Below are positions 584 to 17,139 of a stretch of 17,263 nucleotides of DNA, in pieces (the first letter of the stretch is position 1; the number at the start of each line of letters is the position of its first letter). This DNA comes from Alistipes sp. (GTDB lineage Bacteria; Bacteroidota; Bacteroidia; Bacteroidales; Rikenellaceae): assembly GCA_017934845.1 (NCBI GenBank), contig JAGBIR010000235.1:1-17263 (forward strand), given 5' to 3'. Under the pieces are notes generated by a model. It was not told the DNA's origin. It saw only the letters and a list, made by a program, of their open reading frames with translations, and made no database searches. The position numbers and the translations under genes were made by a program.

Positions 584-629
584 ATTATGGCGGAAATTAC
601 AGCAAGAAAGGCTTGCAAGGTGGGAATTT

Positions 630-677
630 ATACCCCTCTGTCCTGCGGACATCTCCCCTATATTAGGGGCGAAGTTT
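630..677 (+). repeat. Left-type (L) half-repeat of the DUF559-associated family
   Basis: Starts ATACCCCTC and ends GGGGCGAAGTTT. It contains an inner hairpin TGTCC-TGC-GGACA (639-651) and a second hairpin around CCCCTATATTAGGGG. The same unit occurs at 13509-13559, 13657-13706 and 14274-14324 around the DUF559 gene. The sequence just upstream (GCAAGAAAGGCTTGC, 602-616) matches the spacer type that precedes the copy at 13657, so this is a fragment of a longer composite element. No gene is present in this intergenic region (515-844). Confidence 0.85.
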
Positions 678-688
678 GGGATGGCAAA

Positions 689-738
689 AAACTCTCCCCT
701 TAAGATAGGGGGAGTCCCCGAAGGGGGAGGGGGTATGA
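689..738 (+). repeat. Right-type (R) half-repeat of the DUF559-associated family
   Basis: Reads AAACTCTCCCC..., a CCCCTTAAGATAGGGG-type hairpin, then CCCCGAAGGGGG, and ends GGGGTATGA. It matches the R units at 13423, 13575 and 14184. It lies 11 bp after an L unit in the order L-R, whereas the complete composites near 13.4-14.3 kb have the order R-spacer-L. L-R is, however, the order in which L and R flank the DUF559 gene, so this pair may be a gene-less counterpart (inference). Confidence 0.85.
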
Positions 739-11151: not shown

Positions 11152-12237
11152 ATGAAAAAATTTCTCTCGTTTGCAGCTTTTTCGCTAATGGCGATGATGG
11201 CCTTGTCGAGCGTTGCATGCTCGGAGGATGACAAGAAGGAGGAGAATCTGTGGGAAGTCCCCTCGGAGGATCAGATTATCACAATCGAGCCCTCGTATGC
11301 CGTAACCGAACTTAAGGTTATGTCGTTTAATATCCTTACCAACGGTAACAGCGGTACGGAAAACAACTGGGACAAGCGTAAAGATGTTATCATCGATATG
11401 ATTAATGAGGAGGCTCCCGCAATCTTCGGTTTGCAGGAGGCTCGTAAGTCGCAGGTCGATTACTTGGCCGACAACCTTTTGAATTATAATTATATAGCCG
11501 TAAGCCGCGAGGATGGTGGCGAGGACTCTCCGGGTGAGCGTACAGCCGTATTCTACAACACCGACGTTGTTGAGATGATGGATATCGACGGCGAGGATTA
11601 TCACACTTTGTGGCTCTCGGAGACCCCCACTCAGCCCTCTATCGGCTGGAACGACGAGGTTAGCGAGTTGGGAGGCCGTTACAAGCGTACCTACACATGG
11701 TCGTTGTTCCGCGTTAAGGAGACCGATGCCGAGGTATTGTTCTTCAACACCCACCTCGAGTATGGTCACCACGTAGGTATCTACCAAAAGCCCCGTACCG
11801 AGTCTATCAAGCAGATTTTGGCGAAGATAAGGTCGGTTACAACACCCAATCGTGCCGTTGTTTTCTGTGGCGATATGAATCAGGCTTATGGTCACGAGAT
11901 GTTCGACCCCTTGTATAACTGGGGTATGTTCGACTCGCGCGAGAAGGCTGAAGAGTATATTAGCTTGGCTAACCTGTGGGGCAACACTTGGAGTGACTAT
12001 GGTAAGGCTGAGGCCGAGGATGATCCAAAGTTGAGCAACATCCCCGACAAGAACCGCCACGTCGAGGATACAAAGGTTAACATCCGCCAGATTGACTACA
12101 TCTTCCTGAAGAACTGTAACGTTAAGTTCCACAAGATTCTCAACGATGAGAAGTGGCGCAACAACGGTTACTACCTGTCGGATCACCACCCCGTAACAGC
12201 TACTATCTCGTGGGGTGATATAACTCCGGGTGAGTAA
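11152..12237 (+). CDS. Endonuclease/exonuclease/phosphatase-family lipoprotein
   Basis: A 361-residue exported hydrolase of the EEP superfamily (DNase I, sphingomyelinase, inositol-phosphate phosphatase fold). The signal ends LSSVAC, giving lipidation at C23. The following SEDDKKEE is acidic in the way of Bacteroidetes surface-export signals, so it may face outward (inference). Catalytic motifs appear in order: LKVMSFNI, FGLQEAR (metal-binding Glu), FFNTHLEYG (catalytic His region), FCGDMNQ (Asp/Asn), IDYIFLKN and SDHHPVTATI (Asp/His pair). Such Bacteroidetes proteins often act on phosphate esters or phospholipids rather than DNA; the substrate is unknown. A strong terminator follows, then a paralogue with the same order of motifs (12313). 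Confidence 0.9.
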   Translation: MKKFLSFAAFSLMAMMALSSVACSEDDKKEENLWEVPSEDQIITIEPSYAVTELKVMSFNILTNGNSGTENNWDKRKDVIIDMINEEAPAIFGLQEARKSQVDYLADNLLNYNYIAVSREDGGEDSPGERTAVFYNTDVVEMMDIDGEDYHTLWLSETPTQPSIGWNDEVSELGGRYKRTYTWSLFRVKETDAEVLFFNTHLEYGHHVGIYQKPRTESIKQILAKIRSVTTPNRAVVFCGDMNQAYGHEMFDPLYNWGMFDSREKAEEYISLANLWGNTWSDYGKAEAEDDPKLSNIPDKNRHVEDTKVNIRQIDYIFLKNCNVKFHKILNDEKWRNNGYYLSDHHPVTATISWGDITPGE

Positions 12238-12252
12238 ATAAACAAATAGTGT

Positions 12253-12292
12253 AAAGCAGTGACAAACCGCAGAGCTTGTTGCTGCTTTTTTT
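12253..12292 (+). terminator. Intrinsic terminator after the EEP lipoprotein gene
   Basis: The left arm AAGCAGTGACAA (12254-12265) pairs with TTGTTGCTGCTT (12276-12287) over 12 bp with two G-T wobbles and a 10-base loop. It is followed by a T-run to 12292. It starts 16 bp after the stop codon and would separate the two EEP genes into different transcripts. Confidence 0.88.
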
Positions 12293-12312
12293 AACCCTAA
12301 ACCCAACCTACT

Positions 12313-13296
12313 ATGATTAGAAAAATTCTAACCCTTTGTGCCGTTTTCTGCGCGTTGATGACGGCCGATATGGCTTTTGCTGCCGCGCCGCTGAAGGTGG
12401 TGTCGTTTAATATTGTGGTAAGTAACCACGAGACCGAGAATGGCTGGAACATCCGTAAGAGTGCCATCGCAAACTTCCTCAACGAGGAGAAACCCGACGT
12501 TGTGGGCTTGCAGGAGGCTACTTATATGGAGATTGTATATCTGCTCGAGCAACTGCCCGACTACGCCTATTATGGCGTGAGCCGCGACACAGGTAAGGCA
12601 GGCGACAGGGGCGAATATACCGCGATTCTTTATAACAAGCAGACCATCGAACCTATGCAGCAGGGCGAGTTCTGGCTTTCGCCTACGCCCGACAGGCCTT
12701 CGCGCAGCTGGAACGACGAGCAGCAGACAAAGATTGAGCCCCACCCGGGAGCTATGAAGTATAATCGCGTTTGTACGTGGATGCAGCTCAAGCATAAGCC
12801 CTCGAAAAAGGAGTTTTTCCACTTCAACACCCATCTCGAGTTTGGCTATCACGCCAACTACAACCTCGGCCAGACAGCTCGCGAGAAGGGAGTGGAGCTG
12901 ATTGTCGAGCGTATGAAGCAATTGACGGGCGAGAGTGCCGTAATCCTTACGGGCGATATGAATCAGGTGTCGGGCGACAAGTGCTTCAACCCCGTATTCG
13001 AGTGGGCTATGAAGGATGCACGCATCGAGGCAAAGCGCGTTGTGAGCGAGGAGAACCGCAACAGTGTAACGTGGAACGGCTTTAACTTCAATTCGGGTCA
13101 GGCTTCGAATATCGAGAAGGAGGAGAAGAGCAAGGGTCCGGGCAACTTCCATATGATTGACTACATTTTCTATAAGAATTGTAAGGCTATGGAGTACCGC
13201 ACCGTACGCGATAAAATTTATGACAAGGAGCCCGTCGTCGAGGGCATTCCCTATATGTCGGACCACTACCCCATTATGGCAATCTTAAAGTTGTAG
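12313..13296 (+). CDS. Secreted endonuclease/exonuclease/phosphatase-family hydrolase (paralogue)
   Basis: A 327-residue EEP-superfamily enzyme. A Sec signal peptide ends AFA before AAPLKVVSF, with no lipobox cysteine, so the mature protein is predicted periplasmic or secreted. Motifs: LKVVSFNI, VGLQEATY (metal Glu), HFNTHLEFGYH (His), LTGDMNQ, MIDYIFYKN and MSDHYPIMAI. It aligns by eye with the neighbouring lipoprotein over nearly the whole mature length, including SRxxG, the WLSxTP segment and WNDE, so the two are a tandem duplication that diverged in cell location. It lies between two intrinsic terminators and is therefore probably a single-gene transcript, but I see no clear promoter box in the 20 bp left between terminator and start. 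Confidence 0.9.
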   Translation: MIRKILTLCAVFCALMTADMAFAAAPLKVVSFNIVVSNHETENGWNIRKSAIANFLNEEKPDVVGLQEATYMEIVYLLEQLPDYAYYGVSRDTGKAGDRGEYTAILYNKQTIEPMQQGEFWLSPTPDRPSRSWNDEQQTKIEPHPGAMKYNRVCTWMQLKHKPSKKEFFHFNTHLEFGYHANYNLGQTAREKGVELIVERMKQLTGESAVILTGDMNQVSGDKCFNPVFEWAMKDARIEAKRVVSEENRNSVTWNGFNFNSGQASNIEKEEKSKGPGNFHMIDYIFYKNCKAMEYRTVRDKIYDKEPVVEGIPYMSDHYPIMAILKL

Positions 13297-13351: not shown

Positions 13352-13359
13352 TATCTTTG
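13352..13359 (+). promoter_or_regulatory. TAnnTTTG box at the left edge of the repeat island
   Basis: TATCTTTG fits the Bacteroidetes -7 consensus exactly and lies 3 bp after the terminator T-run. No TTG is found 19-21 bp upstream, where the terminator stem lies. If active, it would transcribe the repeat island toward the DUF559 gene. Confidence 0.25.
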
Positions 13360-13360
13360 T

Positions 13361-13395
13361 GTGCAGGAAACAGCCGTTACGGCCGATTCCTGAAG
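13361..13395. repeat. GTAAC-loop hairpin repeat, inverted copy
   Basis: A near-perfect inverted repeat: CAGGAAACAGCCGTTAC followed by GGCCGATTCCTG. On the - strand it reads as the same family as 533-583 (stem-GTAAC-stem-TTTCCTG), here with TTCCTG on both flanks. It is followed at 13393-13420 by a module (AGCATAATAGTGGAAATGAC, then AGCAAGA) that closely matches 581-608 and partly 17151-17165. Confidence 0.75.
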
Positions 13396-13422
13396 CATAA
13401 TAGTGGAAATGACAGCAAGATA

Positions 13423-13559
13423 AAACTCTCCCCCTAAGATAGGGGGAGTCCCGAAGGGGTGGGGTATGATTTTTTGAATGTAAATTATGCCTGCCGGATG
13501 GGAATGTTATACCCCTCTGTCACTTGCGTGACATCTCCCCTATTTTAGGGGCGAAGTTT
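13423..13559 (+). repeat. Composite R-spacer-L palindromic element 1
   Basis: The R half (13423-13469) begins AAACTC, holds the hairpin CCCCCTAAGATAGGGGG and ends GGGGTATGA. The spacer includes TGCCTGCCGGATGGGAAT. The L half (13509-13559) begins ATACCCCTC, holds TGTCAC-TTGC-GTGACA and CCCCTATTTTAGGGG, and ends GAAGTTT. R and L are approximate reverse complements, so the whole 137 bp can fold into one long imperfect hairpin as well as into small ones. The spacer is almost identical to that of the copy at 14184-14324. Confidence 0.9.
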
Positions 13560-13574
13560 GAGTTAGTAAAATAT

Positions 13575-13706
13575 AAACTCTCCCCCTAAGATAGGGGGAG
13601 TACCCGAAGGGGGTAGGGGTATGACTGCAAGAATAACTTGCAGAGCGGTAATGATAATACCCCTCTGTCACTAACGCGACATCTCCCCTATATTAGGGGC
13701 GAAATT
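13575..13706 (+). repeat. Composite R-spacer-L palindromic element 2
   Basis: Same architecture as the element at 13423, which ends 15 bp upstream. R runs 13575-13624 and includes ACCCGAAGGGGGT; L runs 13657-13706. The spacer differs: it contains the perfect inverted repeat CTGCAAG-AATAA-CTTGCAG and resembles the sequence before the L unit near 602-630. The L end has GAAATT instead of GAAGTT and its inner hairpin TGTCACTAACGCGACA has one mismatch, so this copy is slightly decayed. Confidence 0.9.
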
Positions 13707-13717
13707 ATTGATTATAC

Positions 13718-13740
13718 AAAATTCTCTTAAAGAAAGGGGA
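13718..13740 (+). repeat. Degenerate R-like fragment before the DUF559 gene
   Basis: AAAATTCTCTTAAAGAAAGG followed by GGA resembles the start of an R unit (AAACTCTCCCCTTAAGATAGGGG) with several substitutions. It lies 17 bp before the DUF559 start codon. The similarity is short, so it may be coincidence. Confidence 0.4.
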
Positions 13741-13756
13741 AAATGTATTAATATTT

Positions 13757-14146
13757 ATGAAAACACCGCTTATTGCAAAAATAAAAAATTACAATAACAG
13801 CAATCAAAAAGAGCTCCGTCGCCAACTACGTAATAATGCGACAAGTGCGGAAGCTTCATTATGGTTATTGTTAAAAAATAGACAATTAGCGGGTTATAAA
13901 TGGCGGCGACAATACTCTGTTGGGGAGTTTATTTTGGATTTTTATTGCCCAACATGTCGTCTTGCTATTGAACTTGATGGGCAACCTCATTTTTCAATTT
14001 CTGGAAGAGAAAACGATTTTTTGAGAGATAAGATTTTATTACAAAAATATGGAATACAAGTTTTAAGATTTGAGAATAATCTTATTTGGCAAACTCCAGA
14101 AGGGGTTATTGAATTTATAGAAAAACATTTAAAACAAGAGAAATAA
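13757..14146 (+). CDS. DUF559 endonuclease-domain protein (Vsr-like PD-(D/E)XK fold)
   Basis: A 129-residue single-domain protein. Features of the DUF559 family: RRQLRNNATSAEASLWLLL (conserved Glu32), KWRRQYSVGEFILDFYCP (Asp61 following a beta strand), CRLAIELDGQPHF (Glu72, Asp74, His78), LRDKILLQKYGIQVLRFEN and a C-terminal helix. This is the restriction-endonuclease-like core related to the mismatch-nicking enzyme Vsr, so DNA cleavage or nicking is expected; no target has been shown here. The gene is strikingly AT-rich, with AAA/AAT/TTA codons, unlike its G/C-ending neighbours, and is wedged between composite palindromic repeats. This suggests acquisition together with, or a role in spreading, the repeats (inference). 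All putative catalytic residues are intact. The length of about 130 residues is normal for the family. Confidence 0.9.
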   Translation: MKTPLIAKIKNYNNSNQKELRRQLRNNATSAEASLWLLLKNRQLAGYKWRRQYSVGEFILDFYCPTCRLAIELDGQPHFSISGRENDFLRDKILLQKYGIQVLRFENNLIWQTPEGVIEFIEKHLKQEK

Positions 14147-14160
14147 GTTTAAAACTTATT
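14142..14160. terminator. AT-rich inverted repeat at the end of the DUF559 gene
   Basis: AATAAGTTT-A-AAACTTATT is a perfect 9-bp inverted repeat that includes the stop codon of the DUF559 gene. The stem is weak, with no G/C clamp and no long T-run, so termination is only a possibility. Confidence 0.35.
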
Positions 14161-14183
14161 ATAAGAAGTTTATAGGATTATAA

Positions 14184-14324
14184 AAACTCTCCCCCTAAGA
14201 TAGGGGGAGTACCCGAAGGGGGTAGGGGTATGATTTTTTGAATGTAAATTTTGCCTGCCGGATGGGAATGATTATACCCCTCTGTCACTAAAGTGACATC
14301 TCCCCTATTTTAGGGGCGAAGTTT
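14184..14324 (+). repeat. Composite R-spacer-L palindromic element 3
   Basis: R is 14184-14233 and L is 14274-14324. R (same CCCCCTAAGATAGGGGG and ACCCGAAGGGGGT hairpins) is identical over nearly all its length to the R unit at 13575, and the spacer plus L closely match those of 13423-13559, including TGCCTGCCGGATGGGAAT. The inner L hairpin is TGTCAC-TAAA-GTGACA. It lies 37 bp after the DUF559 stop, so the gene is bracketed by copies of the same element in the same orientation. Confidence 0.92.
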
Positions 14325-14346
14325 TGGGAAAAGTAGCAGAAAAAAC

Positions 14347-14388
14347 ACCCTTATTTTAGATGCGAATTTTAGGAAAGTAATAGAAAAT
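14347..14388 (+). repeat. Decayed tandem copy of the L end
   Basis: CACCCTTATTTTAGATGCGA and the following 22 bases match, with substitutions, the preceding TCCCCTATTTTAGGGGCGAA at 14300-14319 and its flank (GTTTTGGGAAAAGTAGCAGAAAA versus TTTTAGGAAAGTAATAGAAAA). The repeat offset is about 47 bp. It no longer forms the CCCC/GGGG stem. It directly precedes mrp, whose upstream region is thus made of repeat debris. Confidence 0.7.
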
Positions 14389-17059: not shown

Positions 17060-17083
17060 CTCAGCTCGGTTGAAATTCAAACT

Positions 17084-17105
17084 TCAGTTGTAACGGCTGT
17101 TTCCT
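17084..17105 (+). repeat. GTAAC-loop hairpin repeat
   Basis: TTCAGTTGTAACGGCTGTTT followed by CC is the same family as 533-583: CAGTT-GTAAC-GGCTG with G-T pairs in the stem, then TTTCC. It lacks the following TGAAGC. A GGCGGAAATGACAACAAA module related to 590-607 follows at 17151. Confidence 0.7.
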
Positions 17106-17107
17106 TA

Positions 17108-17139
17108 ATTCAAAATTAAGAATTCAAAATTCAAAATTG
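17108..17139. repeat. AATTCAAAATT simple repeat
   Basis: Four near-tandem AATTCAAAATT/AAGAATTC units. The same short repeat is at 1-20 and, inverted, at 781-800. All lie in gene-free sequence beside the hairpin repeats. Confidence 0.7.

Follow-up and report, generated by a model that had tools for sequence, protein, structure and literature searches.

Repetitive extragenic palindromic (REP) sequences are tied to HUH tyrosine transposases known as REP-associated tyrosine transposases, or RAYTs, as set out in the available sections of PMC3733652. REPIN-RAYT systems, also treated as REPtrons or as TnpA-REP with REPs and bacterial interspersed mosaic elements (BIMEs), comprise inverted pairs of short palindromic repeats, in tens or more per genome, and a small nuclease gene, usually in single copy, near its own repeat type; head-to-head and tail-to-tail pairs both occur (sections of PMC3733652 and PMC8266576). 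The former source also describes, in those sections, CGTC REPs, which are short stem-loop repeats that "apparently lack a dedicated transposase" and have Bacteroidetes among their hosts. VsrA of Caulobacter, a DUF559-bearing protein, is tied to DNA damage upon loss of an unlinked cytosine methyltransferase (available part of PMC12907096). Here we analyze a 17,263-nucleotide stretch of Alistipes sp. DNA (contig JAGBIR010000235.1 of assembly GCA_017934845.1; the window), in which a 129-residue protein of DUF559 (PF04480), a family that Pfam labels as of unknown function, is encoded at 13757..14146 (+) among inverted hairpin repeats. The locus is likely best read as part of a REPIN-like mobile system driven by this predicted Vsr-like PD-(D/E)xK nuclease.

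Around the gene, three R units alternate with three L units, which bears out a sequence-only reading that had placed inverted, hairpin-rich copies on both of its sides. In each unit, a C/G hairpin 1 (CTCCCCC..GGGGGAG in R1) is joined by a shorter hairpin, hairpin 2, and by a tail rich in G, GGGGTATGA. R1 (13423..13472, +) is followed by L1 (13508..13559, −, in reverse orientation) and R2 (13575..13624, +), which together form a complete gene-less L-R element at 13508-13624. L2 (13657..13706, −) and R3 (14184..14233, +) are the inner left and right ends of the gene-bearing element, and L3 (14273..14324, −) lies beyond. Away from this locus, the recurrence of the two halves that had been noticed near 630-738 corresponds to a further gene-less L-R element at 629..738 (+), TATACCCC...GGGGTATGA. 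Both L-R pairs fold as DNA better than any of 200 shuffles (z −4.0 for 627-738 and −5.8 for 13508-13624), and five single units give z values between −2.0 and −4.4, equaled by 0-7 of 200 shuffles. Comparison of the window with Rfam returned nothing above gathering scores.

A genome-wide search for the units, which the sequence-only reading had proposed, gave 61 blastn matches in the 1.65 Mb of the window genome (G000; G and L numbers denote genomes and loci), an assembly of 242 contigs that is 70% complete; pattern matching found 47 copies, and a reversed control pattern none. A script run over the fetched stretches of this genome reported 16 neighboring L-R pairs, of which three overlap and are false. 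The spacer of the 13 true pairs is 23-48 bp, except for one of 68 bp. The earlier description of a 130-140 bp element of inverted R and L halves can be refined in one respect: like the element at 629-738, complete pairs at other places in this genome are mostly L-R, about 115 bp long and with their G-rich tails pointing outward (TATACCCC...GGGGTATGA). The DUF559 gene occupies the position of the L-R spacer, giving an L2-gene-R3 element of 577 bp overall. Two inverted palindromic units are dispersed as one element, as L-R pairs in G000 and as R-L pairs in Hymenobacter siberiensis (G278), and the nuclease gene adjoins its cognate repeats, as in a REPtron. A second dispersed repeat (CAGCCGTAACGGCTGTTTCCTGAAGCAT... 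and GGAAATGACAGCAAGA...) is present at 524-607, 13355-13420 and 17069-17108 of the window; it often borders the L-R elements of this genome, as if these had inserted beside or into it.

The product of the open reading frame matches PF04480 with 99.2 bits (cut-off 20.6), and its gene has a G+C content of 32%, compared with 51% and 54% for the two neighboring genes, so the gene is indeed AT-rich and unlike its neighbors. The acidic residues singled out earlier as intact, E32, D61 and E72, are invariant in 19 aligned DUF559 proteins of the window's GTDB family, as are D74 and H78. The predicted fold resembles Vsr and homing endonucleases, with the PD-(D/E)xK/Vsr-type core and conserved acidic residues, in keeping with the proposed relation to Vsr; the homing endonuclease I-Bth0305I and Vsr are its nearest relatives with both a solved structure and a known function. 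Pfam gave only DUF559 and a sub-cut-off MTES_1575 match, and no match to any HUH transposase family (Y1_Tnp type). Among defense families, PADLOC returned only weak partial matches of 15.7 and 17.2 bits. The NCBIfam name PRK09767 scores 66.9 bits, under its cut-off of 218, and is inapplicable. The gene lies between two complete genes, and hence is not encoded within an intron or intein in the manner of a homing endonuclease. Two adjacent paralogous genes of the endonuclease/exonuclease/phosphatase family (11152-13296) precede the element. At L038, L039, L044 and L046, the C-terminal ends of the DUF559 frames seem to enter the repeat (for example, SPSKLEGVPEG...), such that repeats abut or overlap the coding end.

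The association of DUF559 genes with hairpins extends well beyond the window. PF04480 was sought in 268 genomes of the GTDB family and matched in 24, of which 18 have a full-length match (E < 1e-20); these correspond to 20 loci, since G230 has three. A simple unit pattern finds units beside 15 of the 20, and reading of the flanks adds L033, L037, L043, L046 and L048, so that all 20 have units nearby. Among the six genomes with a weak match, units lie near it in G053 only. That match, L167 (G053:C180), is a relic of DUF559 that lies between repeat copies and is broken by an in-frame stop, as would fit a decaying driver gene. A wider scan of named genomes, for which 19 of the 20 family proteins were aligned as the query (all but the long L047 frame), found at least 571 relatives; 78 loci were kept among the matches listed, and the counts on 78 or 74 loci rest on these, the lower number excluding four (L061, L064, L080, L101) that are contigs already counted as family loci. 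In a motif-free test, 53 of 78 loci (52 of 74 without duplicates) have a repeat common to the two 400-bp flanks of the gene that exceeds the 99th percentile of controls; the controls here, 2225 overlapping window pairs, are of any kind rather than intergenic only, as are those of the G278 pair analysis below. Typed hairpins lie within 450 bp of the gene at 65/74 DUF559 loci, compared with 36/315 other genes of the same loci, which answers the question, raised with the original proposal, of whether such genes are preferentially flanked by repeats.

By phylum, and counting the four duplicates, hairpins could be typed at 56/65 loci of Bacteroidota, 2/2 of Fidelibacterota, 2/2 without a named phylum, 0/1 of Tectimicrobiota and 1/1 each of Planctomycetota, Kiritimatiellota, Rhodothermota, Acidobacteriota, Nitrospirota, Verrucomicrobiota, Anderseniibacteriota and Balneolota. 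The association is thereby found in ten named phyla, with just one locus in each of eight. Of the 12 largest listed gene clusters within 2.5 kb of the 78 loci, DUF559 alone is common to the loci, the remaining large clusters being shadow frames or one syntenic Hymenobacter site. Repeats also occur elsewhere in the same genome in 15 of 26 genomes, as judged by one strict type-B pattern only, with none for the reversed control. Among the 30 highest-scoring DUF559 loci of Hymenobacter, 18 pass the flank test (controls, 2/59), and the DUF559 family is therefore not uniformly repeat-linked.

Gene and repeats also tend to occur together across genomes. At least three units (two patterns) are present in 16 of the 18 GTDB-family genomes with full-length DUF559 and in 20 of the 250 others (Fisher p 4e-14); the same holds within genus g1 (9/10 versus 12/170, p 6e-9) and genus g20 (6/6 versus 6/17, p 0.014), all three p values being uncorrected for phylogeny. 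The two DUF559 genomes with fewer units are G211, where a third type accounts for 105 units, and G074, which is 58% complete and has one. Within this GTDB family, then, we found neither repeats equally abundant in genomes lacking the gene nor DUF559 genes devoid of repeats, the two outcomes that the sequence-only reading had named as telling against it.

Five hairpin types, placed on the DUF559 tree, require 15 changes, whereas the minimum among 300 shuffles is 33 (83 typed of 94 loci); for the 50 loci of Bacteroidales only, the corresponding numbers are 11 and 17. The types are also genome specific. Among 180 g1 genomes, the CTCCCTCT/CCCCCTCT pattern reaches ten copies only in G069, G089 and G094 (26, 33 and 17), the genomes in which DUF559 is flanked by the CTCCCTCT type; the next-highest counts are in G054 (7) and G032 (3). 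The CTCCTCC/CCCCTCC pattern, counted in 40 chosen genomes, has 105 copies in G211, where DUF559 lies inside the repeat, and none in G210 of the same genus; otherwise it has 7 in G250 (with DUF559), 6 in G253 (without) and 0 to 2 in the others. The three DUF559 genes of G230 adjoin hairpins of differing letters, two of which the typing script scores alike, and one of these types is also found in G239 (L055, L044). Hairpin type thus follows nuclease lineage, with host relatedness explaining part of the signal.

Gene-bearing and gene-less copies can be compared directly in G278, in which a script identified 12 R-L pairs with a gap below 700 bp in 18 stretches. Eleven are gene-less (155-216 bp), and one, of 525 bp, carries DUF559, the sole gene-sized insert. 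All have the tail in common, with an outer ACT in 11/12, an outer AGT in 10/12 and an inner GTTGAAC-like stretch in most. Hairpin 2 varies between copies yet pairs, with a stem of at least six in 19 of 33 units and 23 different arms (shuffles, 1.4%). At homologous sites, elements are present or absent. The window gap that holds the repeat cluster and DUF559 spans 1109 bp. Of 17 relatives examined, 14 have a homolog of the upstream gene ahead of the same Mrp gene, with a gap of 76-611 bp and no DUF559. Identity of this homolog is 68% in G034 and G046, the two closest relatives, and 32-38% in the remaining 12, whose copy may instead be the neighboring paralog. In G094, the gap upstream of Mrp contains a gene-less pair of that genome's own type. 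In Hymenobacter, DUF559 lies upstream of transketolase in 12 of 30 loci fetched from 81 genomes, and a second site has a gene-less element in 3 of the 15 loci that were read, out of 20 fetched, the others having different inverted pairs or nothing. In the syntenic gaps of the Alistipes group, the sequences are too diverged for exact junctions to be aligned by eye.

Considered as a whole, these observations make it probable that the DUF559 gene between L2 and R3, together with the gene-less pairs scattered through the genome, belongs to one system in which the predicted Vsr-like nuclease cuts the units such that units and gene spread. In such a mechanism, hairpin 1 and the G-rich tail would form the recognition signal, and what is preserved in hairpin 2 would be its pairing, not its letters. 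The DUF559 protein would nick or break DNA where hairpins are extruded or single-stranded, for instance on the lagging strand, after which the element would be copied into a new intergenic site by host repair or replication. To our knowledge, PD-(D/E)xK enzymes form no covalent link to DNA, and joining would therefore be left to host repair, as in homing.

Several observations weigh against this reading. The motif-free flank test fails at 25 of 78 loci, and no typed hairpin is found at 9 of 74. The nearest units are oriented in several ways (R-gene-L at 19 and L-gene-R at 6 of 98 loci, four of them duplicates; the rest are one-sided, same-sided, unclear or without units), which leaves the exact mobile unit uncertain. 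In Hymenobacter, where 71 of 81 genomes have a DUF559 match, the link is weak, with at least 10 units in 20/71 genomes with the gene and 0/10 without (p 0.06) and at least three in 34/71 and 2/10 (p 0.17). When weak partial matches are scored as absent, the former comparison becomes 20/66 versus 0/15 (p 0.017), and the median is 20 units in the 12 genomes that carry DUF559 at one particular site, versus 1 (p 2e-5). Reading of the element ends found neither a target duplication nor a base-exact empty site. When five of the 18 G278 stretches were compared with the fetched part of the approximately 99%-identical G318, the elements were common to both, the alignments were unbroken and no recent movement was seen.

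A further difficulty is repeat-rich genomes in which no full gene was found. A search with the family alignment of 18 such genomes without a detectable full DUF559 gave two convincing matches, a relic with a stop in G053 (E 9e-11) and a fragment in G237 (E 7e-7); four others have weak matches (E 0.002-0.1) and twelve none, including G233, G232, G235, G240, G030 and G054. G233 argues most strongly against a strict requirement for the gene: it is 95% complete and has 116 + 45 pattern matches, and this search found no DUF559 in it. Repeat presence thus does not need DUF559. Gene loss with surviving repeats would account for such genomes, and assembly breaks at repeats may hide genes. The proposal that DUF559 plays the role of a RAYT accordingly survives in part: association, co-occurrence, lineage matching and the relation between gene-bearing and gene-less copies speak for it, and the repeats of G233, where the gene was not found, and the weak co-occurrence in Hymenobacter do not. 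Dozens of units without a full DUF559 being found are also seen in G235, G116 and others, as in G233. G017, a genome without a DUF559 match, has 13 pattern matches, mostly to another hairpin (CCCCTTATCAAGGGG...).

These same genomes lend some weight to a different account, in which another enzyme encoded elsewhere (a RAYT, an insertion sequence (IS) transposase or a recombinase) mobilizes the repeats, and DUF559 is cargo or a passenger trapped between two of them. The mixed orientation of the gene relative to the units would also fit, and no search for RAYT genes was made in these genomes. Against this account, which we consider unlikely, hairpin type follows DUF559 lineage and is genome specific, DUF559 is the sole common cluster among the 12 largest listed near the loci, and the only gene-sized insert among the G278 pairs is at the DUF559 locus. 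Less probable still is that DUF559 is a homing-type selfish gene that cuts gene-free intergenic hairpin sites and enters them by repair copying; gene-less pairs would then be its recognition sites or decay products, which it does not spread. Although the structural kinship with I-Bth0305I and Vsr and the patchy presence of the gene (full length in 18/268 family genomes) are what such a gene would predict, homing of the gene alone does not account for gene-less pairs whose own ends are conserved, which vary in presence between homologous sites and of which several genomes have tens of copies. It is very improbable that the hairpins are ordinary terminators or mRNA stabilizers with a repair or restriction enzyme among them by chance, as the DNA-damage connection of Caulobacter VsrA and the location of the units in intergenic gaps at the sites read might suggest, given composite elements with matching ends, hairpin types matched to nuclease lineage and the enrichment of hairpins at DUF559 over other genes of the same loci.

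A second nuclease-repeat system is possible in Hymenobacter, where the flank test is passed by 22 of 30 GIY-YIG loci (L288-L317) and 4 of 58 controls. Motifs of the GTCATSCTGAGC type surround small GIY-YIG nuclease genes on both sides at 15/30 loci and on at least one side at 25/30, and the outer parts of all 30 loci contain three such motifs in total. These repeats resemble CGTC REPs, and gene-less inverted GTCATSCTGAGC pairs replace the DUF559 element at two sites (L195 of G320, L189 and L201 among the loci). Whether nuclease-only REP systems constitute a general, unnoticed class of bacterial mobile DNA we regard as evenly balanced. In such a class, stand-alone nucleases of unrelated fold would drive their own hairpin superfamilies without a transposase, DUF559/Vsr-like proteins a CCCC..GGGG..GGGG-tailed superfamily in ten phyla and GIY-YIG proteins the CGTC-like GTCATSCTGAGC repeats, with the two interchanging at the same intergenic sites.

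If a Vsr-like nuclease does drive these repeats, the uncharacterized DUF559 family gains a testable role and a class of intergenic hairpins gains an origin. It would also provide a mechanism to study, the spread of an element by a nuclease unable to rejoin DNA itself, and would caution against taking every DUF559 gene as a repair or defense enzyme.

A search of the open-access literature (titles and the starts of abstracts) found no report linking DUF559 with such repeats, although one in a subscription journal or preprint is possible. Among described elements, pairs of an IS and its miniature inverted-repeat transposable elements (MITEs) similarly have inverted ends common to gene-bearing and gene-less copies, but here there is no transposase family match and no target duplication was found. 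The CGTC-tagged REPs, as presented in the available sections of PMC3733652, are likewise short stem-loop repeats that occur in Bacteroidetes; the DUF559-linked repeats have another sequence, and it is the GTCATSCTGAGC repeats, which go with GIY-YIG in Hymenobacter, that resemble them. In contrast to the Vsr and VsrA mismatch-repair endonucleases, the DUF559 gene here is repeat-flanked, and unlike the Vsr-like homing endonuclease I-Bth0305I it is free-standing and intergenic between repeats that have many gene-less copies. The likeness to REPIN-RAYT systems lies in the inverted palindromic pairs, their many copies and a nuclease gene near its own repeat type. The differences are that the protein is a DUF559 member with a predicted Vsr-like fold rather than an HUH enzyme, that each unit has two hairpins, the second varying in letters with its pairing kept, and that the conserved GTAG-type tetranucleotide beside the palindrome of RAYT systems is not a general feature: the tails read GGGGTATGA in the window genome and GGGGTGGT in Hymenobacter, and GTAG follows in some type-B tails only (L032 of G211 and L037 of G250). 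Because both the HUH enzyme family and the GTAG tag are lacking, the system is REPIN-like and not a member of the RAYT family. By analogy, it resembles RAYT-REPIN in layout, and its chemistry would be that of a homing endonuclease.
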